Shown here piece by piece: positions 41,626 to 64,000 of a stretch of 64,000 nt of DNA. The position numbers were made by a program, and so were the translations under genes. Within the stretch, counting starts at the first letter, position 1. Each line of letters opens with the position of its first letter. Origin of the DNA: Leadbettera azotonutricia ZAS-9 (lineage in GTDB: Bacteria; Spirochaetota; Spirochaetia; Treponematales; Breznakiellaceae); assembly GCF_000214355.1 (NCBI RefSeq), contig NC_015577.1, forward strand, positions 558,001 to 622,000, in the 5' to 3' direction. The notes under the pieces are model-generated. The model was not told the origin of the DNA, ran no database searches, and saw nothing but the letters and a program-made list of their open reading frames with translations.

Positions 41626-41653
41626 AAAGAGGAAACTCTTAAAAGGATGTGAT

Positions 41654-43604: not shown

Positions 43605-43638
43605 CATCCCAAGGGATGTACGCAATATTCATCTGTCC
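43605..43638. repeat. Left direct repeat of the DUF4062/TPR island
   Basis: This 34-bp segment matches 55611-55644 at 30 positions by eye (shared blocks CATCCCAA, GATGTACGCAAT and TTCATCTGT), in the same orientation. It begins 5 bp after the hydrolase stop and includes the stop codon of the membrane RyR-like gene. The pair encloses the 12-kb island. Confidence 0.75.
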
Positions 43639-45746: not shown

Positions 45747-47640
45747 CGTTTTTCTCCTATTAGCTTATGCAGATCGGCAATACATTGAACTACCTTCACC
45801 GTATCAGGATGATCTTTGCCAAGAACTTTTTCAAAAATGGCAAGGGCTTTTTGGTGGAATTCCAGCGCCTTTTCATGGTTTCCCATGCGGCCGTATGCCA
45901 CGCCTATGTTGCTATACGATGATGCGGTAGAAGGATGCTCAGGGACAAGAACTTTTTCCCTAATGGCAAGGGCTTTTTGGTGGAATTCCAGCGCCTTTTC
46001 ATGGTTTCCCATGTCGCTGTATTCCACGCCTATGTTGTTATACGATGATGCGATAGAAGGATGCTCAGGGACAAGAACTTTTTCCCTAATGGCAAGGGCT
46101 TTTTGGTGGAATTCCAGCGCCTTTTCATGGTTTCCCATGTCGCTGTATTCCACGCCTATGTTGTTATACGATGATGCGATAGAAGGATGCTCAGGGACAA
46201 GAACTTTTTCCTCAATGGCAAGGGCTTTTTGGTGGAATTCCAGCGCCTTTTCATGGTTTCCCATGCGGCTGTATGCCGCGCCTATGTTGCCATACGATAA
46301 TGCGGTATCAGGATGCTCAGGGACAAGAACTTTTTCCCTAATGGCAAGGGCTTTTTGGGAGAATTCCAGCGCCTTTTCATGGTTTCCCATGTTGCCGTAT
46401 TCCACGCCTATGTTGCTATACGATGATGCGGTAGAAGGATGCTCAGGGACAAGAACTTTTTCCCTAATGGCAAGGGCTTTTTGGTGGAATTCCAGCGCCT
46501 TTTCATGGTTTCCCATGCGGCTGTATGTCCCGCCTATGTTGTTATACGATGATGCGGTATCAGGATGCTCAGGGACAAGAACTTTTTCCCTAATGGCAAG
46601 GGCTTTTTGGGAGAATTCCAGCGCCTTTTCATGGTTTCCCATGTCGCCGTATTCCACGCCTATGTTGTTATACGATGATGCGATAGAAGGATGCTCAGGG
46701 ACAAGAACTTTTTCCTCAATGGCAAGGGCTTTTTGGTGGAATTCCAGCGCCTTTTCATGGTTTCCCATGCGGCTGTATGCCGCGCCTATGTTGCCATACG
46801 ATAATGCGGTATCAGGATGCTCAGGGACAAGAACTTTTTCCCTAATGGCAAGGGCTTTTTGGTGGAATTCCAGCGCCTTTTCATGGTTTCCCATGCGGCT
46901 GTATGTCCCGCCTATGTTGTTATACGATGATGCGGTATCAAGATGCTCAGGGACAAGAACTTTTTCCCTAATGGCAAGGGCTTTTTGGGAGAATTCCAGC
47001 GCCTTTTCATGGTTTCCCATGTCGCTGTATGCCATGCCTATGTTGCTATACGATAATGCGGTATCAGGATGCTCAGGGACAAGAACTTTTTCAAAAATGG
47101 CAAGGGCTTTTTGGTGGAATTCCAGCGCCTTTTCATGGTTTCCCATGTCGCTGTATGTCCCGCCTATGTTGTTATACGATGATGCGGTATCAGGATGCTC
47201 AAGGCCAAGAACTTTTTCCCTAATGGCAAGGGCTTTTTGGTGGAATTCCAGCGCCTTTTCATGGTTTCCCATGCCGCCGTATGCCCCGCCTATGTTGCCA
47301 TACGATAATGCGGTATCAGGATGCTCAGGGACAAGAACTTTTTCCCTAATGGCAAGGGCTTTTTGGTGGAATTCCAGCGCCTTTTCATGGTTTCCCATGT
47401 TGCCGTATGCCACGCCTATGTTGCTATACGATGATGCGGTAGAAGGATGCTCAGGGACAAGAACTTTTTCCTCAATGGCAAGGGCTTTTTGGTGGAATTC
47501 CAGCGCCTTTTCATGGTTTCCCATGCGGCTGTATATAATGCCTATGTTGTTATACAATGATGCGGTATTGGGATGCTCAGGGACAAGAACTTTTTTACAA
47601 ATGGCAAGGGCTTTTTGGTGGAATTCCAGTGCCAGAACGT
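45743..47640. repeat. Fifteen near-identical 126-bp tandem repeats coding the TPR array
   Basis: The 3' half of copy 1 is built of 126-bp units differing at few bases, mostly in three variable patches (the codons for R/E/F-EKV, S/D plus I/T before AS/LSY, and the residues around Y[SG]xMG). Whole blocks are repeated: units 7-9 and 11-12 carry the same combinations. This indicates recent unequal exchange or gene conversion; array length is likely to vary between strains. Confidence 0.9.
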
Positions 47641-49720: not shown

Positions 49721-49739
49721 CTTTTACACCCCCTAACAA

Positions 49740-50084
49740 TTTACCCAATACCAAACGATAGCCATCTGTTATTAGTATCGCCGAATTAACGGCCCTTAAC
49801 TAATGAATTAAGTTCGTTGAAGGCGTTGTCTATTTCTTTTTTCCTATAGTTCAGTCCAAGGTAGCCCGGCCTTCCCCAGGGCTAGCCTTTAATCCCGCAG
49901 CCGCCGTTCAAAAATGGCATCGTCTATGTCATCAATAACTTACTCAGAACATCTCCCTGATATGCAAGCCCCGCATTGACACTAAATACATTCAATACGG
50001 CGAATTCTTCCCTATCCATATTGACAACACTTTATATTATCAATAATTCTCTGGCAAGCCGTTTTCAATTAACATCAGGTAAGC
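49740..50084. other. Degenerate spacer with coding remnants
   Basis: The minus strand holds short protein-like frames without full genes: a 31-codon frame starting MDREEFAVLNVFSVNAGL near 50010, and the end of another, RKKEIDNAFNELNSLVKGR, stopping near 49790. They suggest one or two further genes lost between the giant paralogues. I do not recognise the families. Confidence 0.4.
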
Positions 50085-50378
50085 CCGTTCCGTTCGGCAA
50101 GGTACTCCGACATGCCGTTGTATAATTGAGACCATGAGAGCGGATCGGCGCCGCTTATCCCCAAAATTTCAGGCGCGCTTAAACCGGCGCGGGAAGGCGG
50201 GGAGCCAGTCGAGGAGTTTTGCATTGTCCGTATCATCAATATTTTCCATGCCCTCAAGGACCAGAATCAGTTTTTTTTTCGCCGCAGCCCAGAGCAGGTT
50301 TTGCAGATTTTCTGTAAGTGCATCGGCTCCCATTGGCGCATCTCCATCCAGGATGGACAGGTCCCCCTCAGGGGGAAG
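50085..50378 (-). pseudogene. Internally deleted fragment of a third DUF4062-NTPase-TPR gene
   Basis: The minus strand encodes LPPEGDLSILDGDAPMGADA, NLQNLLWAAAKKKLILVLEG, DNAKLLDWLPAFP, matching residues 324-386 of copy 1, then jumps to RAGLSAPEILGISGADPLSW and LYNGMSEYLAERNGLT from over 100 residues further on. The jump falls at a CGGGAAG sequence that occurs at both corresponding places in copy 2, so a short-repeat deletion is the likely cause; the frame is shifted there. Nothing before the Walker region or after RNGLT remains. Confidence 0.85.
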
Positions 50379-50460
50379 CTAGGTATTACCTGTTAGCTTA
50401 TGCAGATCGGCTATTCGTTGAAATACCTGCACCGTATCAGGATGATCTTTGCCCAAAAAC
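50379..50460 (-). pseudogene. Frameshifted C-terminal tail of copy 2
   Basis: If one G of the GGG at 50452-50454 (minus strand) is ignored, copy 2 continues in frame as FGKDHPDTVQVFQRIADLHKLTGNT and stops at 50379-50381. This is the same tail as copy 1 (GKDHPDTVKVVQCIADLHKLIGEKR). The extra base makes the product end early as FGQRSS. Confidence 0.85.
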
Positions 50461-53400
50461 CTTTTCCTGAATGGCAAGGGCTTTTTTATTAAATTTCAAC
50501 GCCTCTTCTTTGTTTCCCAGGTCTCTGTATACCAGGCCGAGGTTGCTATACGATGCTGCAGTAGCAGAATGCTCAAAGCCAAAAACTTTTTCCCTAATAG
50601 CAAGGGCTTTTTGGAAGAATTCCAGCGCCTCCTTATAATTTCCCATGGCGCCGTATATTAGGCCTATGTTGTTATAGGAATCTGCAGTAGAAGGATGCTC
50701 AAAACCAAAAACTTTTTCGTGAATGGCAAGGGTTTTTTGAAAGAATTCCAGCGCCTTTTCATTGTTTCCCATGTCCCGGTATACCGCGCCTATGGTGGTA
50801 TAGGATGTTGCAGTATCGGGGTGCTCAAGGCCAAGAACTTTTTCCTGAATGGCAAGAGCTTTTTGGTAGAATTCCAGTGTTTTTTCTTTGTTTCGCATGT
50901 CGCTGTATACCATGCCTATATTGTTATAGGCTCTTGCAGTATCAGGATGATTAAGACCAAGAACCTTTTCCCGAATGACAAGGACTTTTTGGTAGAATTC
51001 CAGCGTCTTTTCATAGTTTCCCATGACATGGTATGTTATGCCTATGCTGTTATACGATGCTGCAGTATCAAGATGTTCAAGGCCAAAAACTTTTTCGTGA
51101 ATGGCAAGGGTTTTTTGAAAGAATTCCAGCGCCTTTTCATAGTTTCCCATGCTCCAATATACCCCGCCTATGCTGTAATACGATGCTGCAGTACGATTAT
51201 GTCCAAGGCCAAAAACTTTTTCGAAAACAACAAGGGCTTTTTGATGGAATTCAAGCGCCCTTTCATTGTTTCCCATGTCGCTGTATACCACGCCTATGTT
51301 GTAATACTCTGCTGCAGTATAAGGATGCTCAGGACCATTAACTTTTTCACTAATAGCAAGGGATTTTTGGTAAAATTCCAGTGCCTTTTCTTTATTTCCC
51401 AAATTGTTGTATACCGATCCTATGGCATCATAGGCTGCCGCATGAGAAGGATGCCCAAGGCCAAAAACTTTTTCCCGAATGACAAGAGCTTTTTGGTAGA
51501 ATTCCAGTGCCTTTCCGTGGTTTCCCATGGCTTCGTATATCACGCCTATGTTGCTATACGATCCGGCAGTATCAAGATGCTCAAGGCCAAATATTTTTTC
51601 CTTACTGGCAATGGCTTTTTGGTAGAATTCCAACGCCTTCTCATTGTTTCCCATGGTGCGGTATATCACACCGATGTTGTTATAGGATCCTGCGGTATCA
51701 GGATGTTCAGAGCCAAGAACTTTTTCCTGAATGACAAGGGCTTTTTGGTAGAATTCCAACCCCGTCTCTTTGTTTTCCATATTAAGGTATACCGACCCTA
51801 TGTTATTATATGCTGTTGCAGTAGAAGGGTGCTCAGGGCCAAAAATCTTTCCCCTGATGGCAATGTCTTTTTGGAAGAATTCCAGAGCCCTTTCATAGTT
51901 TTTCATATCCCGGTATACCAAAGCTACGCTGTTATACGAATCTACGACAGAGGGATGATTAAGGCCAAAAACTTTTTCTCTAATGGCAAGGGCCCTTAGA
52001 AAGAATTCCAGCGCCTTTTCATAATTTCCCATGTTCCTGCATTCCAGACCTATGTTGAAATAGGATGTTGCAGTATTGGGGTGCTCAAGGCCAAAAACTT
52101 TTTCATAAATCTCAAGGGATTTTTGGTGGAATTCCAGCGCCTTTTCATTATTCCTCATGCCCCCATATACCACGCCCATATTGTTATAGGATGCTGCAGT
52201 ATCGAGGTGTCCAAGACCCAGAATTTTTTCCCTAATTACAAGGGCTTTTTGGTAAAAATCCAGAGCCTTTTCATTGTTTCCCCTGATGTAGTATACATCG
52301 CCTATGCTGGCATAGGATGCTGCAGTATCAGGATGCTCAAGACCAAAAACTTTTTCATAAACGTCAAGGGCTTTTTGGTAGAATTCCAGTGCTTTTTCAT
52401 AGTTTCTCATCCTGTTGTATACCACGCCTATGTTGTTATAGGATGCTGCAGTATTAGGATGCTCAAGCCCCAGAACTTTTTCCCTAACGGTAAGAGCCCT
52501 TTGGAAGAATTCCAACGCCTTTTCATTGTTTCCCCTGATGTAGTATACCTCACCTATGCTGGCATAGGATGCTGCAGTATCAGGATGCTCAAGCCCCAGA
52601 ACTTTTTCCCTAACGGTAAGAGCCCTTTGGTAGAATTCCAGCGCTTTTTCATAGTTTCTCACCCTGTTGTATATCACGCCTATGGTGTTATAGGATATTG
52701 CGGTAGAAGGATGTCTAGGGCCAAAATATTGTTCCCTGACGGCAAGGGATTTTTGGTAGAATTCCAGCGCCTTTTCATAGTTTCCCATGCTCCAATATAC
52801 CAGGCCCATGTTGTCATACGATCCTATTTTATCAGGATGCTCAAGGCCAAGAGTTTTTTCCTGAATAGCAAGGGCTTTTTGGTGGGATTCCAACGCTTTT
52901 TCACGGTTTCCCATTTCCCTGTATACCAAGCCAATGTTGTTATACGATCCCGCAGTAGAAGGATGCTCAAGTCCAAATGCTTTTTCCCTGATAACAAGGG
53001 CCTTTTTTTGAACATAAAGTGCCGTTTCATGGTTTCCCATGTCTCTGAATACCATTCCGATGCTGTCATACGATAATGCAGTACCAGGATGCTCAGGACC
53101 AAAGACTTTTTCCTTAATTGCAAGAGCTCTTTGTAAGTATTGCCGCGCCTTTTCTTTGTTTCCCATATCACTGTATACCAAGCCTATGTTGGTATAGGAT
53201 GCTGCAGTTTCAGGATGCTCAGATCCAAGAACTTTTTCCCGAATGGTAAGAACTTTTTGATGGATTTCCAGCGCCTTTTCATGGTTTCCCATTTTCCAAT
53301 ATACCACGCCAATGTTGTTATAGGAGGCTGCAGTATCAGGATGTTCAGCGCCAAAAACTTTTTCCCTAATGACGATAGCTTTTTGTAAGAATTCCCGCGC

Positions 53401-55578
53401 CTTTTCATAGCTTCCCATGCCGCTGTATACCAAGCCTATGTTGGTATAGGATGCTGCAGTTTCAGGATGCTCAGGACTAAGAACGTTTTCTTTAATGGCA
53501 AGAGATTTTTGAGAGAATTCCAGGGCTAAAACATAATCCCCCAATACTTTAATGATAAAAACTCCAATATCATTGTAGTATCCACTAATAGCTTTTCTAT
53601 CTATATGGCCATCATCGAGGTCAAGATACTTTGCAGGCGAATACTTTTCCTTGTTCTCCTTTTGCAAGGCGCGCCAGTATTCCCCCAGCTCATATTCATC
53701 CTTTATATTGATATAATCAAAAACCGTAAAATCAAGCAGGAAGGCATAGAGTTTGTCCCATTCTTTTAGCGCAAAATACTGGTATGGCAGTTCATCACAC
53801 TTCCGCTTGAAGGAAATATCAGGGGTGGTTTCCATGTAGGAAACGATATGGCGGCGATATTCCTCCTTGCCGTTTTTCAGGCGCCTTGTAACTGTCTCTT
53901 GTATAAACTGGTTGTCAAATAGTATGAGCCCGTTCCGTTTGGCAAGATGCCCGGACATACCGTTGTATAACTGCGACCAATAGAGCGGAGCGGCACCGGT
54001 TATCTCCAAAATCTCAGACTCGCTTAAACCGGCGCGGGAAGACGCCAAGAACGCGAGGACATCACCCGCAAAGCTTTTGCTATCACCGGAGGCGGCGGTG
54101 TAGGTTTTTTCTATACGGTCAATGACCTTGCCGTAGAAGCTTTCCAAATCCGGCGCGGTAAGATAGTTGTCAATGCGGGCGTCAATTTCCTCATGCACCC
54201 CAAAGACCCGCAGTTCGTCCAAAAGTGTCCGCAGGGCAAGAGTGTTTTCACTTTCCTTGTACTGAACAATGCGCTCAATTTGATCGGGCCTTAACTTCTT
54301 TGCATAAGACGCTAGATAATCGGTGATGAGGGTTTTCCGCTCTTCCACCGTAAGAGCCTCAATTGCGATATTGGGGTAGTTCTGGCGTTTGAAGACCTCC
54401 ATGGTTTTATCTCCGGCTTTGGTGGAAAAAATAACCCGTAGATCCGGCGGGAAGGCGGGGAGCCAGTTAAGGAATTTCGTATTGTCGATATCGTCAAGTT
54501 TGTCCATGCCGTCAAGGACCAATATCAGTTTTTCCTTTTCTGCCGCTGTCCAGAGCAGGTTTTGCAGTGTTTCTGTCAGCTTATCTTCCTTGGGCGTTTC
54601 CTCAAGCGGCAGAAGCCCGCAGATTTCGATAATACCGTTGATCAGGTATTTTATTATTTTGCGGTAATCTCCTTCGGAACTTGAATTGCCGATAAAGTGA
54701 TACACAATTTTATCGTGCTGCTTCTCCCTGCGCTGTATCCAATTGGCGATAAGGGCGCTTTTCCCCATGCCCCTTTTTCCGGTAACTACCAGAAACCGGT
54801 CTGCCGTTTCCTCTGGTGCGTTTACAAAATCGTCAAGTTTCTGCGGGGCATCTCCGCTGGGGACATAGACTTTGGTACGGCTCTTTAAAAAGGATTTCTG
54901 TTCCAGCCGTTCTTTTTCAAAAGCAGAAATCGCCCCTTGCGGCCAGAGCTTATCAACAAGGGCCTTAAAGTTCTTTTCAATCATTTCGCCTAAGTTTTCA
55001 ATAGAACGGTAGTCCTTCACCGGGTAGTCTTGCTGCTCCTGCAGCGTTTTTTTAAGAGAGGCGAGTTTTTTCTCCTCATGGCTCCCAGTCTTTTCCCTGA
55101 ATTCGGCCTTTGTTTCCATTTCTGGAGAACGGAAATAAAAATAGGCGTTTATTTTTTCTTTTATCCGCAACACCCCCTGCTGGATTTCCATTTCGGTAAT
55201 ACTGGCGCCTTTGTCCAGTTCACCGCCTACCCAGGGGTATTCCGTAAAAACACCGGTGTTTTCTCCTATCAGGCGGCGCTCCTCAGGGGAAGGAACCCAG
55301 CCGTAGCGCTCCCCTAAAAGGCCGATAAAAAAGGGGGTGGTCTTTTCAATTTCCTTTAGGCATATATCCACAACCTTCCCCTGTTTTGACTCCTCTTCGC
55401 TGATTCCCCAGCGGAGGTCAAGCTCAAGAAAGGAAATATCCCGATCTTCGCAATAGCGGCGAATGGAGGGGAATATCTTCATCACAAGGTAATCCCGCTC
55501 GGCCTGCATATCACGGAATGTGGACGAGATGAATACACGGATCTGGCGTTCTTCGATTTGGTTTGTTGGCATAGTCAC
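50437..55578 (-). CDS. DUF4062 - P-loop NTPase (STAND/NACHT) - TPR giant protein, copy 2
   Basis: A 1713-residue paralogue of the gene at 45743. The DUF4062 and NTPase halves share long identical stretches with copy 1 (IRVFISSTFRDMQAERDYLV, Walker A VVTGKRGMGKSALIANWIQR, Walker B LILVLDGMDKL). The TPR array has 25 units of 42 residues, but unlike copy 1 they are clearly diverged (NYEKALEFYQRALTVREKVL, ASIGEVYYIRG, and so on). A 1-base insertion removes the last 25 residues or so. It has no coupled membrane gene of its own; the position corresponding to one is filled by the pseudogene remnant. It is probably still functional, since the NTPase and nearly all TPRs are intact. Confidence 0.85.
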   Translation of the reverse strand: MTMPTNQIEERQIRVFISSTFRDMQAERDYLVMKIFPSIRRYCEDRDISFLELDLRWGISEEESKQGKVVDICLKEIEKTTPFFIGLLGERYGWVPSPEERRLIGENTGVFTEYPWVGGELDKGASITEMEIQQGVLRIKEKINAYFYFRSPEMETKAEFREKTGSHEEKKLASLKKTLQEQQDYPVKDYRSIENLGEMIEKNFKALVDKLWPQGAISAFEKERLEQKSFLKSRTKVYVPSGDAPQKLDDFVNAPEETADRFLVVTGKRGMGKSALIANWIQRREKQHDKIVYHFIGNSSSEGDYRKIIKYLINGIIEICGLLPLEETPKEDKLTETLQNLLWTAAEKEKLILVLDGMDKLDDIDNTKFLNWLPAFPPDLRVIFSTKAGDKTMEVFKRQNYPNIAIEALTVEERKTLITDYLASYAKKLRPDQIERIVQYKESENTLALRTLLDELRVFGVHEEIDARIDNYLTAPDLESFYGKVIDRIEKTYTAASGDSKSFAGDVLAFLASSRAGLSESEILEITGAAPLYWSQLYNGMSGHLAKRNGLILFDNQFIQETVTRRLKNGKEEYRRHIVSYMETTPDISFKRKCDELPYQYFALKEWDKLYAFLLDFTVFDYINIKDEYELGEYWRALQKENKEKYSPAKYLDLDDGHIDRKAISGYYNDIGVFIIKVLGDYVLALEFSQKSLAIKENVLSPEHPETAASYTNIGLVYSGMGSYEKAREFLQKAIVIREKVFGAEHPDTAASYNNIGVVYWKMGNHEKALEIHQKVLTIREKVLGSEHPETAASYTNIGLVYSDMGNKEKARQYLQRALAIKEKVFGPEHPGTALSYDSIGMVFRDMGNHETALYVQKKALVIREKAFGLEHPSTAGSYNNIGLVYREMGNREKALESHQKALAIQEKTLGLEHPDKIGSYDNMGLVYWSMGNYEKALEFYQKSLAVREQYFGPRHPSTAISYNTIGVIYNRVRNYEKALEFYQRALTVREKVLGLEHPDTAASYASIGEVYYIRGNNEKALEFFQRALTVREKVLGLEHPNTAASYNNIGVVYNRMRNYEKALEFYQKALDVYEKVFGLEHPDTAASYASIGDVYYIRGNNEKALDFYQKALVIREKILGLGHLDTAASYNNMGVVYGGMRNNEKALEFHQKSLEIYEKVFGLEHPNTATSYFNIGLECRNMGNYEKALEFFLRALAIREKVFGLNHPSVVDSYNSVALVYRDMKNYERALEFFQKDIAIRGKIFGPEHPSTATAYNNIGSVYLNMENKETGLEFYQKALVIQEKVLGSEHPDTAGSYNNIGVIYRTMGNNEKALEFYQKAIASKEKIFGLEHLDTAGSYSNIGVIYEAMGNHGKALEFYQKALVIREKVFGLGHPSHAAAYDAIGSVYNNLGNKEKALEFYQKSLAISEKVNGPEHPYTAAEYYNIGVVYSDMGNNERALEFHQKALVVFEKVFGLGHNRTAASYYSIGGVYWSMGNYEKALEFFQKTLAIHEKVFGLEHLDTAASYNSIGITYHVMGNYEKTLEFYQKVLVIREKVLGLNHPDTARAYNNIGMVYSDMRNKEKTLEFYQKALAIQEKVLGLEHPDTATSYTTIGAVYRDMGNNEKALEFFQKTLAIHEKVFGFEHPSTADSYNNIGLIYGAMGNYKEALEFFQKALAIREKVFGFEHSATAASYSNLGLVYRDLGNKEEALKFNKKALAIQEKVFGQRSS

Positions 55579-55610
55579 TACCTTTTATAGCATTATGTCG
55601 CACCCGGATA

Positions 55611-55644
55611 CATCCCAACTGATGTACGCAATTTTCATCTGTTC
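55611..55644. repeat. Right direct repeat of the DUF4062/TPR island
   Basis: This segment matches 43605-43638 at 30 of 34 positions (mismatches at GG/CT, A/T and C/T). It lies between the copy 2 start and the HAD gene stop. On the minus strand both copies read like a gene start (ATG-AAA/AAT-ATT-GCG-TAC-ATC), so they could also be duplicated remnants of a gene's 5' end. Confidence 0.75.
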
Positions 55645-56293
55645 AGGACGCGAGGTTAAGACTCTTTAGAAATTCTTCCCAATCCCCGCCAGTTTCTATC
55701 TTGAAAAAGCTCATGCCCGCTGCCGCTGCTCCTGCCCCGTCGCTGTCCTCCCGGTCGCCTACAACCAGCGTTTCCTTGGGAGGGACATTCATTGCCTCTG
55801 CGATGGACAGGAAGGGCCGGGCTGCCGGCTTCTGGGCGCCGAAATTTTCGGGGCCGAATATCAAGCCGCAGCTTTCCGGGTTCAGGCCCAGGGAATGCAG
55901 GCGTTCTGCCACCATGGGATAATCGGAATAGACGGCGAATTTCAGCCCTTTGCGGGCGAGTGTTTTGAACAGTTCGGGCAGCCCCGGCCGATGCTGGTAA
56001 TGCTTTTTTAAAACCTTGCACATCCGCGGCATAAAGGAATCAAAGTACCAGGAGCGGAGGAAGGGCTCCGGTTTACGGGTGGCCAAAGACAGGCGGGAAA
56101 GAAACTCATGGTAATAAGTTTCGCTCCCGCCGTAATCGCATCCTGCCAGGGACTTCCGGGTTTTGCGTTCAGCCAGAAGGAGGGGAGCCTCCCAGGGGCA
56201 AGCCAAAACAAGCCGCGCGCCGATATGCCTGGAATCGTACAGGGTTCCGTCAAGATCGAAGATAAATCCCCGAACCCCGTCAAGCGGCTTTAC
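55643..56293 (-). CDS. HAD-family hydrolase with no canonical start codon
   Basis: A HAD phosphatase of about 215 residues. Motif I is FIFDLDGTLYDS (56243-56266 for FIFDLDGT), motif II is FAVYSDYP, motif III Lys lies in FGPENFGAQKPAARPF, and motif IV is LVVGDREDSDGAGAAAAGM, so the enzyme core is complete. However, no ATG, GTG or TTG lies upstream of motif I in this frame before a stop within the GH3 gene; the first possible start (TTG, 56206) would delete the nucleophile Asp. Either a rare start codon within 56270-56293 (overlapping the GH3 stop at 56290) or an indel is involved. It may be coupled to the GH3 gene upstream. The given right end is an estimate. Confidence 0.65.
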   Translation of the reverse strand, partial: VKPLDGVRGFIFDLDGTLYDSRHIGARLVLACPWEAPLLLAERKTRKSLAGCDYGGSETYYHEFLSRLSLATRKPEPFLRSWYFDSFMPRMCKVLKKHYQHRPGLPELFKTLARKGLKFAVYSDYPMVAERLHSLGLNPESCGLIFGPENFGAQKPAARPFLSIAEAMNVPPKETLVVGDREDSDGAGAAAAGMSFFKIETGGDWEEFLKSLNLAS

Positions 56294-57990
56294 CGTACCA
56301 GTTCCTTGAACAGGGCGTGGCGTTTTTCATCCTGCATGAGGAGGTTTACCTTGAACTGGCCATCCCGGTAGCCTTTGTCGATGCAGGTAGCTTTGAACTT
56401 TTCAAAGGATTCGTTCACCAGAAGTGCAGTCTCCGGGTATTTGAGGCGGTTCGAAGAACGCTTGGACTCGTACTCAATATTGTACTTTTTAAGGTACTCG
56501 TCCAGGACCTGGGTAAAGTTCTCGGCTTTTTCCTGGGTGATATCGGCGTTGACAAATTCGTAGTAGAACCGGTAGGTCGGCTTGGTCACATCGGCAAAAC
56601 CGATAAAGAAGGCTACCCGGTTGCCTGTGTCCCGTTCCGCATCATGCACTGCTTCGATAAACTGGGTCTCGTGGAGTTTCTCGCCCGTAAGGTTTACTGT
56701 GCCGTTCACCTTCTGGATCAGCTTGAGTGTGGGGAATTGGTTGACAAAACCGGTGATTTCAATCAGGTCGTTCATATTGTACCGGTACAGCCCTGCGGAG
56801 GTGGTCACGATCATGCAGTAGCGCTGGCCCCGTTTCACTTCGTACATCTGGTAGATGCGGGGGTTTTCGCTTTCCAGCTCCGACTCATGGATAAATTCAA
56901 TATACACCTTGTTGCCAAAAATAACGGTGTCCGGGCAATTGCTTTTAAGCACAATTCCGGGCCTGCATTCGGTGGAATTGTAGCCCATTTCATGGAACAC
57001 ACAGCTTTCGGGGAAGGAATCCCGCACTTTTTTGAAGAACACCTCGGTGTTGCCGCAAAACCAGGTGTTGACTGCCTGCATATTGGGCCAGTAATGCCTG
57101 GGCATTACATTTCCGTGCCGCACCCTTAAGGCGCGCAGTTCATCCGCCCGCTTCGGGTTCGGTTTGAGCCTCGCTTCCACGGCTTTGCGGATTTCATCGG
57201 AGATGGGGAATTTTTGGCTCAGGGTTCCTTGTTCAATGTCCTCTACGTAATCATCATAGAATTCATTGGCGTTGTTCTGCATTTCCACCAGAGTACTGGG
57301 ATTTGCGGTGATGATCAGGGTACAATCCTGTTCGATGCCCATCCGCATGATCGTATAATACCGGGCCTTGTAATCGGTGATGCCGAAAACATCCGCCGGA
57401 GCGGTGTGGAGTACCTTCATGAATTTAGGGATATCGCGCTGGCCGATTCCCCCGACAGAACCGTATACTGTCCCATCCGGGGCAGCCCCTTCTATGGCTT
57501 TGCCCACGATGGAAAGGGTCTTGCCGTAAAACACCTTGGGCTTGTTCATGACCATGCCGTAAAACCAAAGCTGGTTCATCACCTTGTATACTTCCTGGTA
57601 GTACTGCTCGGTGATAGGTATCCATTTGGGTTCCTTGGTAGTGCCGCTGGTGGTGGCGTACATCTTTGGCTTGCCGGGGAACAGGATATTCGCCTCCCCA
57701 TGCTTGTGCCGCTCGATATAGGGCTTGAAGTTTTCGTAATCGCCGATGGGCACTTCTTTCCTGTACCGTTCAAACAGATCCAATGCGGTGGTTGCTTCAA
57801 GAATGGTGTCAAAATGATGTTCCTTGCCGTACACCGTATCCCGTGCTGTGGTAAGGAAGCCGCGCAAGGTCTGTTCCTGGGATCGTATAGCGTTTTTGGA
57901 CGCCTTCGTCATCTTCCCGATGCCAACCTTGCCAATGATAGTCAGTGCCAAGCGGATTAACCACCAGCCTTTCACTTTCTTTATAGCCAT
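56290..57990 (-). CDS. GH3-family acyl-adenylating enzyme, copy A
   Basis: A 566-residue GH3-like protein, the family of plant jasmonate/auxin-amido synthetases also found in bacteria. Adenylation motifs are YATTSGTTKEPKWIPIT near 110-126, GYNSTECRPGI (YxxTE) near 335, and YRYNMNDLIEITGF near 400. It should activate a carboxylic acid with ATP and join it to an acceptor; the substrates are unknown. AAAGGAG precedes the ATG. It lies 38 bp after copy B, and its stop abuts the HAD frame. A hydrophobic N-terminal patch (WWLIRLALTIIG) suggests membrane association. Confidence 0.88.
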   Translation of the reverse strand: MAIKKVKGWWLIRLALTIIGKVGIGKMTKASKNAIRSQEQTLRGFLTTARDTVYGKEHHFDTILEATTALDLFERYRKEVPIGDYENFKPYIERHKHGEANILFPGKPKMYATTSGTTKEPKWIPITEQYYQEVYKVMNQLWFYGMVMNKPKVFYGKTLSIVGKAIEGAAPDGTVYGSVGGIGQRDIPKFMKVLHTAPADVFGITDYKARYYTIMRMGIEQDCTLIITANPSTLVEMQNNANEFYDDYVEDIEQGTLSQKFPISDEIRKAVEARLKPNPKRADELRALRVRHGNVMPRHYWPNMQAVNTWFCGNTEVFFKKVRDSFPESCVFHEMGYNSTECRPGIVLKSNCPDTVIFGNKVYIEFIHESELESENPRIYQMYEVKRGQRYCMIVTTSAGLYRYNMNDLIEITGFVNQFPTLKLIQKVNGTVNLTGEKLHETQFIEAVHDAERDTGNRVAFFIGFADVTKPTYRFYYEFVNADITQEKAENFTQVLDEYLKKYNIEYESKRSSNRLKYPETALLVNESFEKFKATCIDKGYRDGQFKVNLLMQDEKRHALFKELVR

Positions 57991-58028
57991 ATAGTACTCC
58001 TTTAATCCTTGTTCTCCATGTATCAGAT

Positions 58029-59729
58029 CTACCGTACCAGTTCCTTGAACAGGGCGTGCCGTTTTTCATCCTGCATAAGAAGATTAACCTTAAATTGACC
58101 GTCACGGTAGCCCTTGTCGATGCAGGTTGCCTTGAACTTTTCGAAGGACTCGTTCACCAAAAGGGCAGTCTCGGGCTGCTTGAGCCGGTTCGATGCGCGC
58201 TTTGACTCGTATTCGATGTTGTACTTTTTCAGGTATTCATCCAGGACCCGGGTAAAGTTCTCGGCCTTTTCCTGGGTAATGTCGTGATTGACAAATTCGT
58301 AGTAGAATCGGTAGGTGGGCTTGGTCACATCCGCGAAGCCCACGAAGAAAGCCACCCTGTTGCCCGTGTCCCGTTCCGCTGCGTGCACCGCTTCGATAAA
58401 CTGCCGCTCGTGGAGCTTTTCGCCGGTGATGTTCACCGTGCCGTTCACCTTCTGGATCAGCTTGAGGGTAGGGAATTGATTTATGAACCCGGTAATTTCA
58501 ATCAGATCGTTCATGTTGTACCGGTACAGCCCTGCGGAGGTGGTCACAATCAGGCAGTACCGTTCGCCTTTTTTCACCTCGTACATCTGGTAGACCCGAG
58601 GATTTTCGCTTTCCAGTTCCGATTCATGGACAAATTCGACATATACCTTGTGGCCGAAAACGACCGTATCCGGGGTATTGCTTTTCAGCACAATGCCGGG
58701 CCGACATTCTGTGGCAAAGTAGCCAAATTCATGGAAAACGCAGGTCTTGGGGAAGGAATCTTTGACCTTCTCCAGGAATATCCCGGTGTTGCCGCAAAAC
58801 CAGACATTGACTGCCTGCATATTGGGCCAGTAATGCCTGGGAAGGACATTCCCATACTGGGCCTTTAAGCGCCGCAGTTCCGCTGCCCGTTCCGGGTTCG
58901 GCTTGAGACGCTCCGCCAGGACTGCGCGGATTTCGTCGGGGATGGGGAATTTCCGGCTCAGGGTTCCCTTTTCAATATCCTCTACATAGTCGTCATAAAA
59001 TTCATTGGCGTTGTTCTGCATTTCTACCAGGGTGCTGGGATTGGCGGTGATGATCAGGGTGCAGTCCTGCTCAATGCCCATGCGCATAATTGTATAATAC
59101 CTGGCCTTGTAATCGGCGATGTTGAAAATATCCGCCGGCGCGGGGTGCAGCACCTTCATAAAGCCGGGAATGTCCCGCTGGGAGATGCCGGAAATAGAGC
59201 CAAAAACTGTCCCGTCCGGGGCCGCCCCTTCTGTGGCCTTGCCCACGATGGAAAGGGTCTTGCCGTAGAACACCTTGGGTTTGTTGGTGATCATGGCGTA
59301 GAACCAGAGCTGGTTCATCACCTTATACACTTCCTGATAGTACCGCTCGGTGATAGGTATCCATTTGGGTTCCTTGGTTGTGCCGCTGGTGGTTGCGTAC
59401 ATCTTGGGCTTGCCGGGGAACAGGACGCCCGCCTCGCCCTGCTTGTGCCGCTCCACGTAAGGCCGGAGATCTTCGTAATCATTGATGGAAACTTCTTTCC
59501 GGTACCGCTCGAACAAATCCTGGGGGCTGGACGCCGCAAGAACCTCATCAAAATGATGCTCCTTGCCGTAAACCGTATCTTTTGATGCGCTAAGGATATT
59601 GCGAAGGGTCTGTTCCTGGGCTTTTATGGCATTCTTCGAAGCCTTCTTAAGCTCCCCGATGCCCTTTTTCCCAACAATAGTCAGTGCAAGGCGGATTAGC
59701 CACCAGCCCTTCACCTTCTTTATGCCCAT
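58029..59729 (-). CDS. GH3-family acyl-adenylating enzyme, copy B
   Basis: Same length (566 residues) and nearly the same sequence as copy A, with long identical blocks such as YATTSGTTKEPKWIPIT and QDCTLIITANPSTLVEMQNN. Differences cluster in the loop before the second motif (GYFATECRPGI instead of GYNSTECRPGI) and the N-terminal helices, consistent with a tandem duplication whose copies have begun to differ in substrate. The ATG at 59729 follows AGGAG; an in-frame ATG at 59903 would translate the AT-rich regulatory region. Confidence 0.88.
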   Translation of the reverse strand: MGIKKVKGWWLIRLALTIVGKKGIGELKKASKNAIKAQEQTLRNILSASKDTVYGKEHHFDEVLAASSPQDLFERYRKEVSINDYEDLRPYVERHKQGEAGVLFPGKPKMYATTSGTTKEPKWIPITERYYQEVYKVMNQLWFYAMITNKPKVFYGKTLSIVGKATEGAAPDGTVFGSISGISQRDIPGFMKVLHPAPADIFNIADYKARYYTIMRMGIEQDCTLIITANPSTLVEMQNNANEFYDDYVEDIEKGTLSRKFPIPDEIRAVLAERLKPNPERAAELRRLKAQYGNVLPRHYWPNMQAVNVWFCGNTGIFLEKVKDSFPKTCVFHEFGYFATECRPGIVLKSNTPDTVVFGHKVYVEFVHESELESENPRVYQMYEVKKGERYCLIVTTSAGLYRYNMNDLIEITGFINQFPTLKLIQKVNGTVNITGEKLHERQFIEAVHAAERDTGNRVAFFVGFADVTKPTYRFYYEFVNHDITQEKAENFTRVLDEYLKKYNIEYESKRASNRLKQPETALLVNESFEKFKATCIDKGYRDGQFKVNLLMQDEKRHALFKELVR

Positions 59730-59855
59730 ATACGCACTCCTTTGCAAAGAATTAGTGATACTGTTTACATATATAATATCCAAATTCGCATGATATTCAA
59801 GGTCTCGGCATGGCTGCGTCAATAAGCCCTGGTTTAAGCCTGTAGAAGGGTTGAT

Positions 59856-59912
59856 TGTATCAAAATGATACACTGTATAGTCAAAATAGGCCTCATGTAT
59901 CATTTTGATACA
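59856..59912. promoter_or_regulatory. Paired TGTATCA-N3-TGATACA palindromes, candidate activator sites
   Basis: TGTATCAAAATGATACA at 59856-59872 and TGTATCATTTTGATACA at 59896-59912 are perfect dyads, the second being the reverse complement of the first, with a 40-bp repeat distance. They are 160-216 bp upstream of the hsp20 sigma-54 promoter and 127-183 bp upstream of GH3 copy B. No other gene lies in 59730-60217; the rest is AT-rich leader. Confidence 0.7.
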
Positions 59913-60071
59913 ACCGAGTGAAAAGCATCTCCTTTTGGATGAAAATGCGTGTTTTTCGCAGAGGGGTTAAATGGGTCTTCAATAATTGATGATTCGATAA
60001 TTCATTGTATTATAAAGAGTTAGCTTTGCAAGGAGCAGATTCCTCAAGAATTCTTTCGAATCCGGCAAACT

Positions 60072-60087
60072 TGGCACGGATTTTGCT
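60072..60087 (+). promoter_or_regulatory. Sigma-54 (-24/-12) promoter of hsp20
   Basis: TGGCACGGATTTTGCT matches TGGCACGNNNNTTGCW at every fixed position with GG-N10-GC spacing, preceded by T. Transcription should start near 60098, giving a leader of about 120 nt before the ATG at 60218. Confidence 0.88.
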
Positions 60088-60132
60088 AATATATAGATGT
60101 TGGCTGGATAATCCAGAACCCGATGCCTTTAG

Positions 60133-60162
60133 AGGCTGTCAGCCTTTGAGGTCAAAGACCTC
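60133..60162 (+). promoter_or_regulatory. Two hairpins in the hsp20 5' leader
   Basis: AGGCT-GTC-AGCCT (60133-60145) and GAGGTC-AAA-GACCTC (60148-60162) lie side by side in the predicted leader, 55 nt before the ribosome site TAGGAG. Heat-shock leaders often fold into RNA thermometers, but here the visible stems do not cover the ribosome site directly. Confidence 0.45.
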
Positions 60163-60217
60163 AGGATTGGGTCTGAGAAATAACCTGCCAGACGAAATTA
60201 TTATAGGAGACAAGATT

Positions 60218-60667
60218 ATGAAAGCTGTAACTTTGTATCGCCCTGCAGTCCTTGAGAACGCCCTCAGCGGTTTTGACCGCTACATGGATTCCTTCTTTGG
60301 GGATAACTTCCTTAGCCCCGCAGACAGGATCTTCAGCCATCTTCCTGCCATGGACGTGCGTGAAACCGAAAAGTCCTATGTGCTGGAAGCCGAGCTCCCC
60401 GGCTACGACGAGAAGGAAATCGAAGTCCACCTGGACAACAACACCCTGACCATCGAGTCCAAGAGGGAAGAGGAAAAGAAAGAAGAGAAGAACGACAATT
60501 ACATGATCCGGGAACGCCGGTCCTCTTCCTTCGCCCGCTCCTTCAAGCTCCCCGAAAACGCCGACCCCGAAGGCATCAGCGCATTGTTCAAAAATGGCGT
60601 ACTCACCCTGGAGATCAGCAAGAGGGCCGAAGCCCAGAAAAAAGTGATCCAGATTTCTAGGAACTAA
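60218..60667 (+). CDS. Small heat shock protein, Hsp20/alpha-crystallin family
   Basis: A 149-residue chaperone. The ATG at 60218 follows TAGGAG; in-frame codons back to 60005 cover the promoter and leader and are not coding. The alpha-crystallin domain spans MDVRETEKSYVLEAELPGYDEKEIEVHLDNNTLTI to GISALFKNGVLTLEISK, and the C-terminal motif is KKVIQISRN (I-x-I). The inserted EEEKKEEKNDNY loop is a common variant. It holds unfolding proteins for refolding. It is transcribed from a sigma-54 promoter. Confidence 0.94.
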   Translation: MKAVTLYRPAVLENALSGFDRYMDSFFGDNFLSPADRIFSHLPAMDVRETEKSYVLEAELPGYDEKEIEVHLDNNTLTIESKREEEKKEEKNDNYMIRERRSSSFARSFKLPENADPEGISALFKNGVLTLEISKRAEAQKKVIQISRN

Positions 60668-60684
60668 AGTTCCTTTGAACTAAT

Positions 60685-60730
60685 TTTCAGCAAGCTGAAA
60701 CAAGGCCCGGGCGAGAGTCCGGGCTTTTTA
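60685..60730 (+). terminator. hsp20 terminator (double hairpin)
   Basis: A first perfect stem, TTTCAGC-AA-GCTGAAA (60685-60700), is followed by GCCCGG-GCGAGAGT-CCGGGC and TTTTTAT (60705-60730), a standard intrinsic terminator. Confidence 0.88.
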
Positions 60731-60743
60731 TAGCCCGATTGTT

Positions 60744-63686
60744 TTACAATTCTGCAGAAACATAAATACCCCAGGCAAAGTCGTTCCAACCTATGCCGTT
60801 TTGTGCGCCTGAAATTTTGAATGCACCCCAGAGCTCAGGCTTAACGGTTACGGGCAGGGCTGTTACAAATACTGTGGAAAGGGCTGCGCCGAAACGCAGT
60901 ACTGCTGACTGGGCAAGGCGATAATCATCCCAGAGGGGATTGCCCTGGGGTATATTAACACTTTTACTGTCATAAAAAGCGCCTCTGTAGGCAAGAGAAC
61001 CAAAGATGCGATTGTAATAAACATGGGAGAGGTTCTTTTTGATGTCCACAGAAAAGAGCCTCCATTCAATTTCCCCGCCCCCCATCCATTTGAAGCCCGA
61101 ACTGTCAAAGCTTGAATATTCTGTCGAAGCGATTGGGGCGAAAAGGGATGTGTCGTAAGATCTTGAATAGCCTGCCAGGTTAAGGCCGTCAGAATCCCAG
61201 ACGCCATAGAAACCGAATCTCAAGGGGAAGGGATCAAAGGCTGCCTTGAAGAGCCCTTCGTAGCGGGGTGCGGCTTCGGGGAAGGAGAAACGGCTGTAGA
61301 ATGCTGCCGAGAAACCGCTGCCAAAAAGCTCCCAGGCGCTCCTTTTCAGGCTGGTCAGCTCAATGCCGAATATGAGTGAGCTGCCATGGGTTTCGTATTC
61401 CCAGGTGTAGGCGGAAGATCCGTCTTCGGGATCAAAGGCAAACCAGGCCATGCCTATCCCTGCCTGGAAATTCAGCCTGACGAGTTCTCCCCCCAGGCCA
61501 TGGCCAATTATCGCGGTGATTGTCCCCTGGGTGCGGCGGTAATCTATTTCCCAACTCCGGTCCATATCGTCAGAAAAAGTAATTTGCAGGGGAAAGCCCA
61601 GGCTGCGGTTTGTCCACTGGAGGTCGAAAACCCCCATAAGGTTCCTGGCATCCATGTAAGCTGATAAAAATATGAAATTGGTGTCTGCAGGGTCTGCCAT
61701 AAACGAAAAGAACCCGCCCCCGTCTATGCTGATGCTGCTTTCGTGACGCCTCAGCAGGGGCAGGGGTATCCAGAGCTTAAAAGGGTTGAGGTATTTGAGG
61801 GGGAAGTATAGTTTGCTGTCAGCGCTCTGTTCCCCGGCGGAAGGTTCCCGGGGTGTTTGCTGAACCGGGGGCTGTATTTGCCTGAGTCCCGCAGCAATGC
61901 TGTCTTCCTCGGGCCAGGGCTCAAGGTGCAGGCCGCTGATTGCCAGCGGAGCTTCCCGCAGGGACTCTGCCTCATCAGGGTATTTCATAATCGCATCCCA
62001 GGTGGAGAATGCGCCGCGATAGTAGATATCCCCGTTGAGCAGTACGGGCAGGAAGATGCCGCCTGAGAAATCAGTGTTGGAAAGAACCGCAGTGATGCTG
62101 CTCTCGTTCAGGGCAGAATGGTTTGCGGGAAGTATTATGACCCCCAGTTTATACATCCTGTCATTATGGTTATAGCTAAAAAGGAGGCGGCCTTCTGAAT
62201 AGGAAAGCCCCCGCATATAACGCCAGATGTTTTCATTGTCATCAAGGGCCGAAACCAGGGTATAGGCCTGGCGGGTATCATAATTGAAAAGGCAGAGTTC
62301 CCGCTTTCCTTTCTTTAGCGCAATGAACGCAATCCACTCGTCATCAATGGGGCTGGGGCGGGAATAGAGAAGCTCGGCATTCCCTTTGAGAAGTATCTCC
62401 TCGCCTTTTTTCCCCGGCTTGCTGCGGTATACTAAATTGTTTGTATGCCGATCGGAGCTTATCCCTACCGCCCCTTCCCTAAAAAAACGCCCATGGTAAA
62501 GACCGGGCCAGGTTCTGCCTGTTTTATTGCCATTGCCGCTGTACTCGGTAACCATGGCCTGGGAAAGATTCCCCCCATAACGGTAGGAGGAAATTAAAAA
62601 GCTGCCGTTGTTCGTCGCATCAATATCGTAAGCCGAACTGTCTATGGAGGCCAGCTTTTTAATAGCCCCTGGACTTCCGCCGGAACCCCCTGCGGATGTA
62701 GGATTATATTTCAGCACTTTTTCTGCGACACTATCAATGAATATAACACTATTACTGTCGGAAGTGACAGCATTTATAATAACTTTGTCTTTTTGATTCC
62801 CGCCGTATACAAATCCATCATTATTTTTTTTGATGCCTTCAAGGCGCCAGCTTTCCTTAAAGACATTCCAGGCTTCTTCAAAACTCAATCCATAAATTTT
62901 TTTGAATGAGTAATAAAAGCCGTTGTTGTAAAACCAAAAGGAAAAGTGATAACCCGTTCCCATGTCCTTCCAGAGTCCGGCATACTTTTCCATGCCGTAG
63001 GTTTTCTGAAGCCATGCGGAAAAGAGGCCGCCATAATCGTAATAGGCATTCCCCTGGGGCGGGTATTCATATATGCCCGAAGCCTGGAAGCCGGTAAGGA
63101 AATTATCTTCGTGCACGGCCTGAGAGAGCTTTTCTTTGATGAGGGGATCGTTGGCCCTGCCAAAACCTTCCAAGCTTTCAAAGCTTACCGTAACCCCCTC
63201 GACCATGAACATGGGGGCTGTAAGCCCTGTGGGGTATACCCAGCCGCCGAAAATAGTGTGAAGAACCTGGAAGCCCTTGCCCCTGGAACTCAGGGAAATT
63301 GCATGAGTCAGCTCATGGAAGAAAAGGCTCTCCAGGGAATTTTCGTAGGCTGTCCATTCAGGATCCATGGGGGTGTCGAAGAGGACTATGTGCGGGTAGG
63401 GCAGGGGGTTCATATATCCGTTGAACTCGTCTGTGTGCGGGGTGATGGCAACCGGGATCCTGTCCTTCACGGTTATGCCTAAAAGCTTTGACGCTTTCTT
63501 ATAGCTTTGATCCGCAAAGAGGGAAAGAGCCCGTGCGGTTGCTTCAGATTCAGCGGGGTAAATGATTTCAAAATGTTCGGTTTTTATTGCACGAAGCAAG
63601 ATGAAAGGCTTGAAATTCTGGGCGCTGACAGACACTGCCCCCAGGAGGCAAAGGGACAGGCTTATGAGCAGGCGGCGCAGATACAT
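60744..63686 (-). CDS. Large HExxH protein with propeller-like middle and beta-barrel C-terminus
   Basis: A 980-residue exported protein (signal LLISLSLCLLGAVSVSAQ). Residues 28-290 form a peptidase MA-like region (FEIIYPAESEATARALSLFAD) with the zinc motif SLFFHELTHAISLSSRG near 128 and MFMVEGVTVSFE near 182 carrying the likely third ligand Glu. Residues 310-620 contain repeats of beta-strand pairs like a WD40/TolB-type propeller (DKVIINAVTSDSNSVIFID, GSFLISSYRYG, EWIAFIALKKG). From about 680 to the end, alternating aromatic-rich strands (FSFMADPADTNFIFLSAYMD, RSAWELFGSGFSAAFYSRFSF) suggest an outer-membrane barrel. It probably sits in the outer membrane as a protease or a degraded scaffold. 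It is divergent from murA. Confidence 0.7.
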   Translation of the reverse strand: MYLRRLLISLSLCLLGAVSVSAQNFKPFILLRAIKTEHFEIIYPAESEATARALSLFADQSYKKASKLLGITVKDRIPVAITPHTDEFNGYMNPLPYPHIVLFDTPMDPEWTAYENSLESLFFHELTHAISLSSRGKGFQVLHTIFGGWVYPTGLTAPMFMVEGVTVSFESLEGFGRANDPLIKEKLSQAVHEDNFLTGFQASGIYEYPPQGNAYYDYGGLFSAWLQKTYGMEKYAGLWKDMGTGYHFSFWFYNNGFYYSFKKIYGLSFEEAWNVFKESWRLEGIKKNNDGFVYGGNQKDKVIINAVTSDSNSVIFIDSVAEKVLKYNPTSAGGSGGSPGAIKKLASIDSSAYDIDATNNGSFLISSYRYGGNLSQAMVTEYSGNGNKTGRTWPGLYHGRFFREGAVGISSDRHTNNLVYRSKPGKKGEEILLKGNAELLYSRPSPIDDEWIAFIALKKGKRELCLFNYDTRQAYTLVSALDDNENIWRYMRGLSYSEGRLLFSYNHNDRMYKLGVIILPANHSALNESSITAVLSNTDFSGGIFLPVLLNGDIYYRGAFSTWDAIMKYPDEAESLREAPLAISGLHLEPWPEEDSIAAGLRQIQPPVQQTPREPSAGEQSADSKLYFPLKYLNPFKLWIPLPLLRRHESSISIDGGGFFSFMADPADTNFIFLSAYMDARNLMGVFDLQWTNRSLGFPLQITFSDDMDRSWEIDYRRTQGTITAIIGHGLGGELVRLNFQAGIGMAWFAFDPEDGSSAYTWEYETHGSSLIFGIELTSLKRSAWELFGSGFSAAFYSRFSFPEAAPRYEGLFKAAFDPFPLRFGFYGVWDSDGLNLAGYSRSYDTSLFAPIASTEYSSFDSSGFKWMGGGEIEWRLFSVDIKKNLSHVYYNRIFGSLAYRGAFYDSKSVNIPQGNPLWDDYRLAQSAVLRFGAALSTVFVTALPVTVKPELWGAFKISGAQNGIGWNDFAWGIYVSAEL

Positions 63687-63722
63687 TGTTCAAGATTAGT
63701 ATAATGGTTTAAAGTCTTCAAT

Positions 63723-64000
63723 ATGAATCAGTATCTTATTGAGGGCGGCAGCCCCATCTCCGGGACCATCAGGGCCAGCGGCAACAAAAACGCTGCCCTG
63801 CCCTGCATTGCAGCAGCCCTTTTAACCGGAGCGCCGGTGGTTCTGCGCAATATCCCCGATATCGAAGATGTTCAGGTCATGTTTGAAGTGTACCGTTCCC
63901 TTGGGGGCGAGACTGAACCCCTGGGGCCCAATGCCTGGAAGATGAAGCTGGGAGATATAAAAAATTCCGAGATCCCCCAGGAGCAGGCAAGGAAGATACG
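63723..64000 (+). CDS. murA: UDP-N-acetylglucosamine 1-carboxyvinyltransferase (partial, 3' end outside window)
   Basis: The first 92 codons of MurA: LIEGGSPISGTIRASGNKNAALPCIAAALLTGAPVVLRNIPDIEDV, containing the family GNKNAALP loop with its catalytic Lys-Asn and IPDIEDV. It makes the first committed step of peptidoglycan synthesis, adding enolpyruvate to UDP-GlcNAc. The active-site Cys/Asp (near residue 115) lies beyond the window. It is divergent from the gene at 60744, with 36 bp between starts. Confidence 0.95.
   Translation, partial: MNQYLIEGGSPISGTIRASGNKNAALPCIAAALLTGAPVVLRNIPDIEDVQVMFEVYRSLGGETEPLGPNAWKMKLGDIKNSEIPQEQARKI

Follow-up and report, generated by a model that had tools for sequence, protein, structure and literature searches.

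What do two tandem genes of the GH3 family do in a gut spirochaete, and with which neighbours might they work? We addressed this question in Leadbettera azotonutricia ZAS-9, using a stretch of 64,000 nucleotides (the window) that spans positions 558001–622000 of a single-contig genome of 3,855,671 bp, whose relatives place it among the spirochaetes, as a first-pass annotation made from the letters alone had supposed. The two genes, here called GH3a and GH3b, stand beside a gene for a HAD-superfamily protein, and across related loci this arrangement recurs together with a PlsC-type acyltransferase gene. A ligase capable of forming acyl amides, a lipid acyltransferase and a phosphatase that are kept together across phyla, and are partly fused, point to one lipid pathway. 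We consider the chances about even that GH3 makes an amide-linked acyl precursor that is completed by PlsC and HAD, as a membrane-lipid pathway of a clade of gut bacteria.

Two GH3-type genes in tandem

56290–57990, minus strand: GH3a, acyl-acid amido synthetase-like, 566 amino acids; Pfam GH3, GH3_M and GH3_C
58029–59729, minus strand: GH3b, paralogue of GH3a, 566 amino acids from the ATG at 59729; same three Pfam domains

The two genes are adjacent, separated by 38 bp, and each has 566 codons; their products are identical at 477 of 566 positions (84%) without gaps, which bears out the annotated pair of tandem 566-residue paralogues. The open frame of GH3b reaches 59903; in the alignment, GH3a begins where GH3b has the ATG at 59729. 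Both paralogues score far over the cut-offs for PF03321, PF23571 and PF23572. Elsewhere in the genome (C1:2414772) lies a third copy of GH3, with 67% identity to GH3a.

An AlphaFold model of GH3a (pLDDT 85.6) was used for a Foldseek search, in which ranks 1–16 were all plant GH3 chains (TM-score 0.75–0.81, or 0.76–0.80 by query length), matching over the whole model at about 22% identity; some other plant GH3 chains fitted worse, with a TM-score of about 0.6 and a root-mean-square deviation of 13. Residues S115, G116, T117, K122, Y337, E341, G400, R403, Y404 and D408 are invariant in all 96 members of the clade described below, and position 340 is S or T in every one of them. The assignment of GH3a and GH3b as GH3-type amido synthetases, as first annotated, is thus well supported by domains, motifs and predicted fold.

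The nearest solved relatives are plant hormone-conjugating GH3 enzymes, and the host gut is rich in plant material. Both observations would suit an enzyme that conjugates small acids (aromatic acids from wood, indole or other gut acids) to amino acids, possibly for detoxification, storage or signalling as in plants, with the lipid genes present by coincidence. A plant-like small-molecule role of this kind is possible but poorly supported by the neighbours, and we regard it as unlikely: identity to the plant enzymes is low, the clade also occurs in Bacteroidales and treponemes of ruminants and horse (by record titles), and the partnership with HAD and PlsC is kept across phyla and fused in two loci. 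The plant enzymes, to which the first-pass annotation had turned for function, are probably a misleading guide, because the conserved neighbours indicate lipid assembly.

A separate GH3 clade in gut bacteria

In a FastTree phylogeny with one plant sequence as root, and from which OlsH itself (see below) was absent, 96 sequences formed a clade of their own (support 0.985), apart from 29 mainstream Bacteroidota GH3 proteins. Its members come from termite-gut spirochaetes, other treponemes, gut Bacteroidales and one Fibrobacteraceae metagenome-assembled genome. Of the 145 genomes from the family of strain ZAS-9, 45 carried GH3 genes; of 296 drawn from the phylum, 34 did so at an E-value of 0.001, 31 of them above the cut-off. 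Placement in a family with a settled bacterial function, which had been named as grounds for giving up the idea of a distinct role, did not emerge from this tree, and OlsH is distant by score.

Bacterial GH3 proteins are widespread; among them, OlsH is the lyso-ornithine lipid synthetase of Singulisphaera acidiphila, which forms N-acyl ornithine from a fatty acid, ATP and ornithine (PMC12493201). The two paralogues score 108.8 and 111.5 bits against the NCBIfam OlsH model (NF052613), far below its cut-off of 620, and we reject membership of that family. A divergent OlsH acting with a PlsC-type, OlsA-like O-acyltransferase in an ornithine-lipid pathway would nevertheless fit the weak model match, and the genome has no match at an E-value of 0.001 to PF13444, which we take to be OlsB-type. 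The known logic of ornithine-lipid synthesis, N-acylation followed by O-acylation, would fit as well (PMC12493201, in part). We judge this pathway very unlikely, given how far the scores lie below the cut-off; moreover, as far as the source was covered, ornithine-lipid pathways proceed without any HAD enzyme, and the OlsH authors expect other amino acids outside planctomycetes (PMC12493201).

HAD and PlsC genes accompany GH3

55643–56293, minus strand: HAD-superfamily phosphatase-like; PF00702 when read from the GTA at 56293
40801–41625, plus strand: PlsC/LPLAT-family acyltransferase, the third member of the set; PF01553

In the window, the HAD gene is present directly downstream of GH3a, where it had been annotated, and the PlsC gene is convergent with the GH3-HAD genes, about 14 kb away. 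We examined the same neighbourhood in 84 loci, comprising the window, three further loci (L053–L055) and the best 80 of the 265 relatives found in one scan (L101–L180). No two of them share the same GH3 DNA; loci and genomes are not independent samples, and many loci are close relatives. Partners were sought by six-frame profile searches, which found GH3 in 84 of 84 loci; for these partner counts the window was trimmed to 45000–64000, which leaves its own PlsC and TRAP genes outside them.

In 61 of the 79 loci with at least 800 bp downstream, a HAD gene follows GH3 immediately, on the same strand. By group, according to record titles, this holds for 38/50 termite-type and allied loci, 16/20 from Bacteroidales, 6/8 from other treponemes and 1/1 from Fibrobacteraceae. 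In a sister family, the count is 7 of 11 loci, or 7 of 9 if only new genes are counted, because two of the eleven, L078 and L079, both without HAD, already figure among the 84 loci as L175 and L158. With the same profiles, no HAD gene was found behind any of the 29 mainstream Bacteroidota GH3 genes or behind any of seven distant spirochaete GH3 genes with at least 600 bp downstream (four others were too short to score), and the single outermost clade member, L073, has none either. The suggestion that the HAD gene belongs with GH3 is thus well supported for this clade, against 0/29 and 0/7 in the other GH3 groups. D13, D15, S123, K155, G179, D180 and D185 of HAD, corresponding to the DxDGT, Ser, Lys and GD...D motifs, are invariant in 34 aligned members, and the predicted HAD structure (pLDDT 95.7) matches structures of the HAD-IA type.

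PlsC is the second partner. A PlsC-family gene lies within 7 kb downstream of GH3 in 37 of the 64 loci with at least 4 kb there. The frame right behind GH3 is a fusion of HAD and PlsC in L134 and L140 (confirmed by Pfam for L134), and in L177 the order PlsC-GH3-GH3-HAD runs in one direction over about 5 kb. The family member with a 4,059,867-bp genome (G037, locus L055) carries TRAP, PlsC, HAD and GH3 genes side by side, and the PlsC protein of the window is 68% identical to one that adjoins GH3-HAD in L105. Across the 145 family genomes, 41 have both GH3 and a strong PlsC match, 4 have GH3 only, 10 PlsC only and 90 neither (Fisher p 5e-22, in a test that ignores shared ancestry and incomplete genomes, and with strong matches set at E < 1e-90, the next being about 1e-29, a threshold chosen after the gap in the scores was seen).

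Of the GH3 partners, HAD lies nearest and occurs most widely, and in Bacteroidales PlsC often lies elsewhere. From this one could propose that HAD takes part in the GH3 reaction itself, cleaving pyrophosphate, AMP or a phosphorylated amine substrate, while PlsC is only loosely connected and the product, a free N-acyl amino acid, leaves the cell as a signal or surfactant. Phosphatases of the HAD-IA type that act on pyrophosphate and on nucleotides are known, and the corresponding NCBIfam models give weak matches to HAD, far below their cut-offs. We find this arrangement quite improbable in view of the two HAD-PlsC fusions and the co-occurrence of PlsC with GH3.

The PlsC proteins of the set keep the HxxxxD motif, as scored in 42 of 44 matches, the two omitted being pieces of one gene in L137. 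FPEG-x-RS is the PlsC acceptor motif, and the genome's other PlsC has FPEGHRS. The set's proteins mostly read FPE[S/G/E][S/C/A][R/N/S]W instead; after FPE (n = 42), Gly occurs in 13, Arg in 18 and Trp at the last position in 36, so that FPEG-x-RS, as a mark of lysophosphatidic acid acyltransferases, is mostly missing from the set. This altered motif may point to an acceptor different from ordinary lysophosphatidic acid. For PlsC, nonsynonymous divergence (dN) is well below synonymous divergence (dS), and a comparison with PDB sequences gave two weak matches to another kind of protein and no acyltransferase up to an E-value of 1.

Several loci show further variations. Just upstream of GH3 in a termite Treponema metagenome-assembled genome, a frame at L132:8003-9850 encodes a 615-residue fusion of glycosyltransferase family 4 and PlsC. 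A CrtI-like FAD oxidoreductase gene adjoins GH3 at L123:11701-13200, L127:2573-4081 and L146:7168-8634, with family matches obtained for L123, where it sits between GH3 and HAD. In Brucepastera parasyntrophica (L137), the PlsC gene beside GH3 is split into two frames.

A possible amide-linked lipid pathway

In the pathway that we favour, GH3 would activate a free carboxylic acid by adenylation, a long-chain fatty acid being the likeliest, and pass its acyl group on to an amino compound, so that an N-acyl (amide) lyso-lipid forms. The PlsC-type enzyme would then place a second acyl chain on a hydroxyl, and the HAD enzyme would take phosphate off an intermediate. Substrate, order of steps and end product are our inference from the gene set. 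In its most specific form, GH3 would link a phosphorylated amino compound to a free fatty acid, PlsC would attach the second chain, HAD would remove the phosphate and, in termite symbionts, a TatP-type importer would feed the pathway; this form is tentative and rather unlikely to hold as a whole.

If this specific form is right, the three genes would constitute a new route to amide-linked membrane lipids, common to Spirochaetota, Bacteroidales and Fibrobacteraceae of the gut and parallel, with an amide, to the route from phosphatidic acid to diacylglycerol. The set gives this GH3 clade of gut anaerobes a testable pathway context, and predicts a lipid that could be sought in cultured strains.

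A TRAP transporter is encoded beside PlsC in the window.

37910–38923, plus strand: TRAP solute-binding protein (DctP family), TatP-like; PF03480, with Gly at the carboxylate-binding Arg position
38923–40788, plus strand: TRAP fused membrane subunits DctQM; PF06808 and PF04290

The nearest solved structures to the binding protein are those of Tp0957 of Treponema pallidum. All 20 neighbours of this TRAP type that were compared have Gly in place of the carboxylate-binding Arg, which is present in a classical DctP of the same genome. A DctQM-type gene lies beside or near PlsC in relatives. According to the parts of the literature covered here, Tp0957 has Ala at this position, a hydrophobic pocket and ligands described as unknown, and TRAP binding proteins without the carboxylate-binding Arg have been linked to hydrophobic ligands (PMC4646407, PMC5812351). 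In termite-gut species, the TatP-like TRAP system beside PlsC may import a hydrophobic acid or a lyso-lipid; the pathway would in turn lend metabolic context to a transporter type whose ligands are so described (PMC4646407, in part). Among the open reading frames (ORFs) adjoining 37910–40788, only some of which were covered by a Pfam scan, no TatT TPR lipoprotein was seen. The same genome's second TatP-like TRAP locus (L229, G000:C1:1520117) has Ala at the Arg position, and a frame beside it resembles a TatT-type lipoprotein by eye.

Evidence against a lipid pathway

Several findings weigh against the proposed lipid pathway, together with the limits on the co-occurrence test and on the sample of loci given above. 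HAD is not directly behind GH3 in 18 of the 79 loci, including the third GH3 copy of this genome (in 4 of the 18, HAD is nearby in another position), and among the 19 Bacteroidales loci scored for PlsC, only 5 have it close to GH3. DctQM lies within 8 kb downstream of GH3 in only 15 of the 55 loci with at least 6 kb there, these 15 being of the termite lineage. The genome encodes a FabH-type protein, so import of fatty acids would not be required. Structure searches with HAD returned general HAD-IA enzymes only, with no pointer to a lipid phosphate as substrate. Finally, in the HAD gene of the window, the stretch from the upstream stop in frame to the catalytic DLDGT contains no ATG, GTG or TTG.

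Of 63 loci, 56 do have such a start codon ahead of DxDGT and after the stop in frame; it is lacking here and in six others. In five of these seven start-less HAD genes, a triplet overlaps the GH3 stop codon (GTAA at 56290–56293 in the window and likewise in L055, CTGA in two loci and ATAG in one), which suggests that HAD may be translated by coupled re-initiation on a degenerate start. Between HAD and its G037 counterpart, dN is 0.21 and dS 0.99; with dN well below dS, the gene is probably in use. We also considered a broken HAD gene, since the listed ORF begins past the catalytic Asp, and rejected it, because the frame is intact upstream and dN is far below dS.

Divergence of the two paralogues

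The first-pass annotation had placed the differences between GH3a and GH3b mainly near the second adenylation motif. Our alignment did not confirm this: the 89 differences are spread, and residues 330–350 hold three of them. The densest 20-residue window, residues 31–50, has eight differences, a value reached by 59% of 2000 shuffles; differences are commoner at residues 21–100 and 261–340, and the last 46 residues have none.

Between the paralogues, dN is 0.095 and dS 0.85, and between GH3a and its relative in G037, dN/dS is about 0.10; both GH3 copies look to be under purifying selection. In the tree, GH3b is the earlier branch, while GH3a clusters with the sequence from G037 and with the first of the copies in strain MS495-87 (supports 0.92 and 0.82). 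The duplication thus seems older than these species, given that GH3b branches before GH3a and the G037 copy separate; on this branching and the dS, we reject a recent tandem duplication. Two GH3 frames on the same strand occur together in 6 of the 84 loci (the window, L101, L135, L140, L174 and L177), the pair in L140 looking like one gene in two ORFs.

One residue sets GH3a apart. Directly after the Tyr of motif II it has Asn338, found in 1 of 96 clade members, the other 95 having F, V, L, Y, I or M. Since no other member matches this residue, and since the GH3a branch is longer than that of GH3b (0.13 versus 0.07), GH3a might be decaying or neofunctionalised, leaving GH3b alone in the ancestral role. 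We think this distinctly unlikely, as GH3a retains the other motif residues checked, shows the low dN/dS against its G037 relative, and is the copy, rather than GH3b, that groups with the G037 and first MS495-87 sequences.

Upstream palindromes and surrounding genes

59856–59872, no strand: perfect 7+3+7 palindrome upstream of GH3b, possible operator
59896–59912, no strand: second copy of the palindrome, 40 bp from the first
41567–43600, plus strand: alpha/beta-hydrolase-like, adjoining PlsC; weak abhydrolase matches, membership doubtful

The palindromes TGTATCAAAATGATACA and TGTATCATTTTGATACA (59855–59913) sit between GH3b and an HSP20 gene. They are the only two sites in the whole genome at up to one mismatch, and the pair is possibly the operator of a dedicated regulator. 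No copies were found elsewhere in the loci scanned, and a clade-wide operator was rejected, because the palindromes were not found upstream of GH3 in seven close relatives.

On the plus strand of the window come DctP, DctQM and PlsC; about 14 kb further on lie HAD, GH3a and GH3b, in that order, on the minus strand. The intervening 14 kb hold the alpha/beta-hydrolase-like gene, a gene for a 705-residue protein and two DUF4062-TPR genes. The alpha/beta-hydrolase ORF overlaps PlsC, and its true start is probably downstream of 41567; a similar protein adjoins PlsC in L101. The 705-residue protein (43629–45746), beside the TPR genes, has no Pfam match at an E-value of 0.001, nor has a 980-residue protein encoded across the HSP20 gene (60744–63686). 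The tandem DUF4062-TPR proteins, of 1325 and 1713 residues (45743–49720 and 50437–55578), have near-identical N-termini and long TPR arrays, with a NACHT match in the first.

Comparison with known systems

The literature searched yielded OlsH as the only characterised bacterial GH3 amido synthetase. IaaL of Pseudomonas savastanoi, an indoleacetic acid-lysine synthase, was not counted, being described, in the part of the source covered, as an ANL-domain enzyme rather than a GH3 protein. We found no literature that combines GH3 with HAD, lysophospholipid acyltransferase, Treponema and lipids; a search on GH3 in Bacteroidota turned up only work on another subject, and the spirochaete literature searched held nothing on GH3 at the level of title listings; on these searches, the GH3-HAD-PlsC set appears to be unreported. 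The main text on OlsH mentions neither 'spiroch' nor 'Treponema' (PMC12493201).

Like the proteins studied here, OlsH is a bacterial GH3 enzyme with a three-motif ATP site, acts in a lipid pathway and is followed by an O-acyltransferase. Its partners differ, being OlsI, an alpha/beta hydrolase, and OlsG, a methylase, where here we find HAD and a PlsC-type protein. No OlsI-type gene lies directly beside GH3; for the alpha/beta-hydrolase-like gene by PlsC no comparison with OlsI was made, nor was any search aimed at OlsG. The plant GH3 enzymes (JAR1/AtGH3.11, GH3.5, GH3.6 and GH3.12) share the full-length fold, predicted in our case, as well as motifs I–III and size, but at about 22% identity or less. 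The mainstream Bacteroidota GH3 proteins (about 505–540 residues) belong to the same PF03321 family, yet form a separate clade with no HAD gene behind any of the 29.

For the transporter, the closest solved binding protein is that of the Treponema pallidum TPAT system (Tp0957), which likewise has no carboxylate-binding Arg; it differs in having Ala where the protein here has Gly, and the latter is encoded next to PlsC. The O-acyltransferase of the OlsBA and GlsBA pathways belongs to the PlsC family. These pathways resemble our proposal in placing N-acylation before O-acylation, and differ in that here the N-acyltransferase would give way to a GH3 ligase, with a HAD enzyme as an addition.

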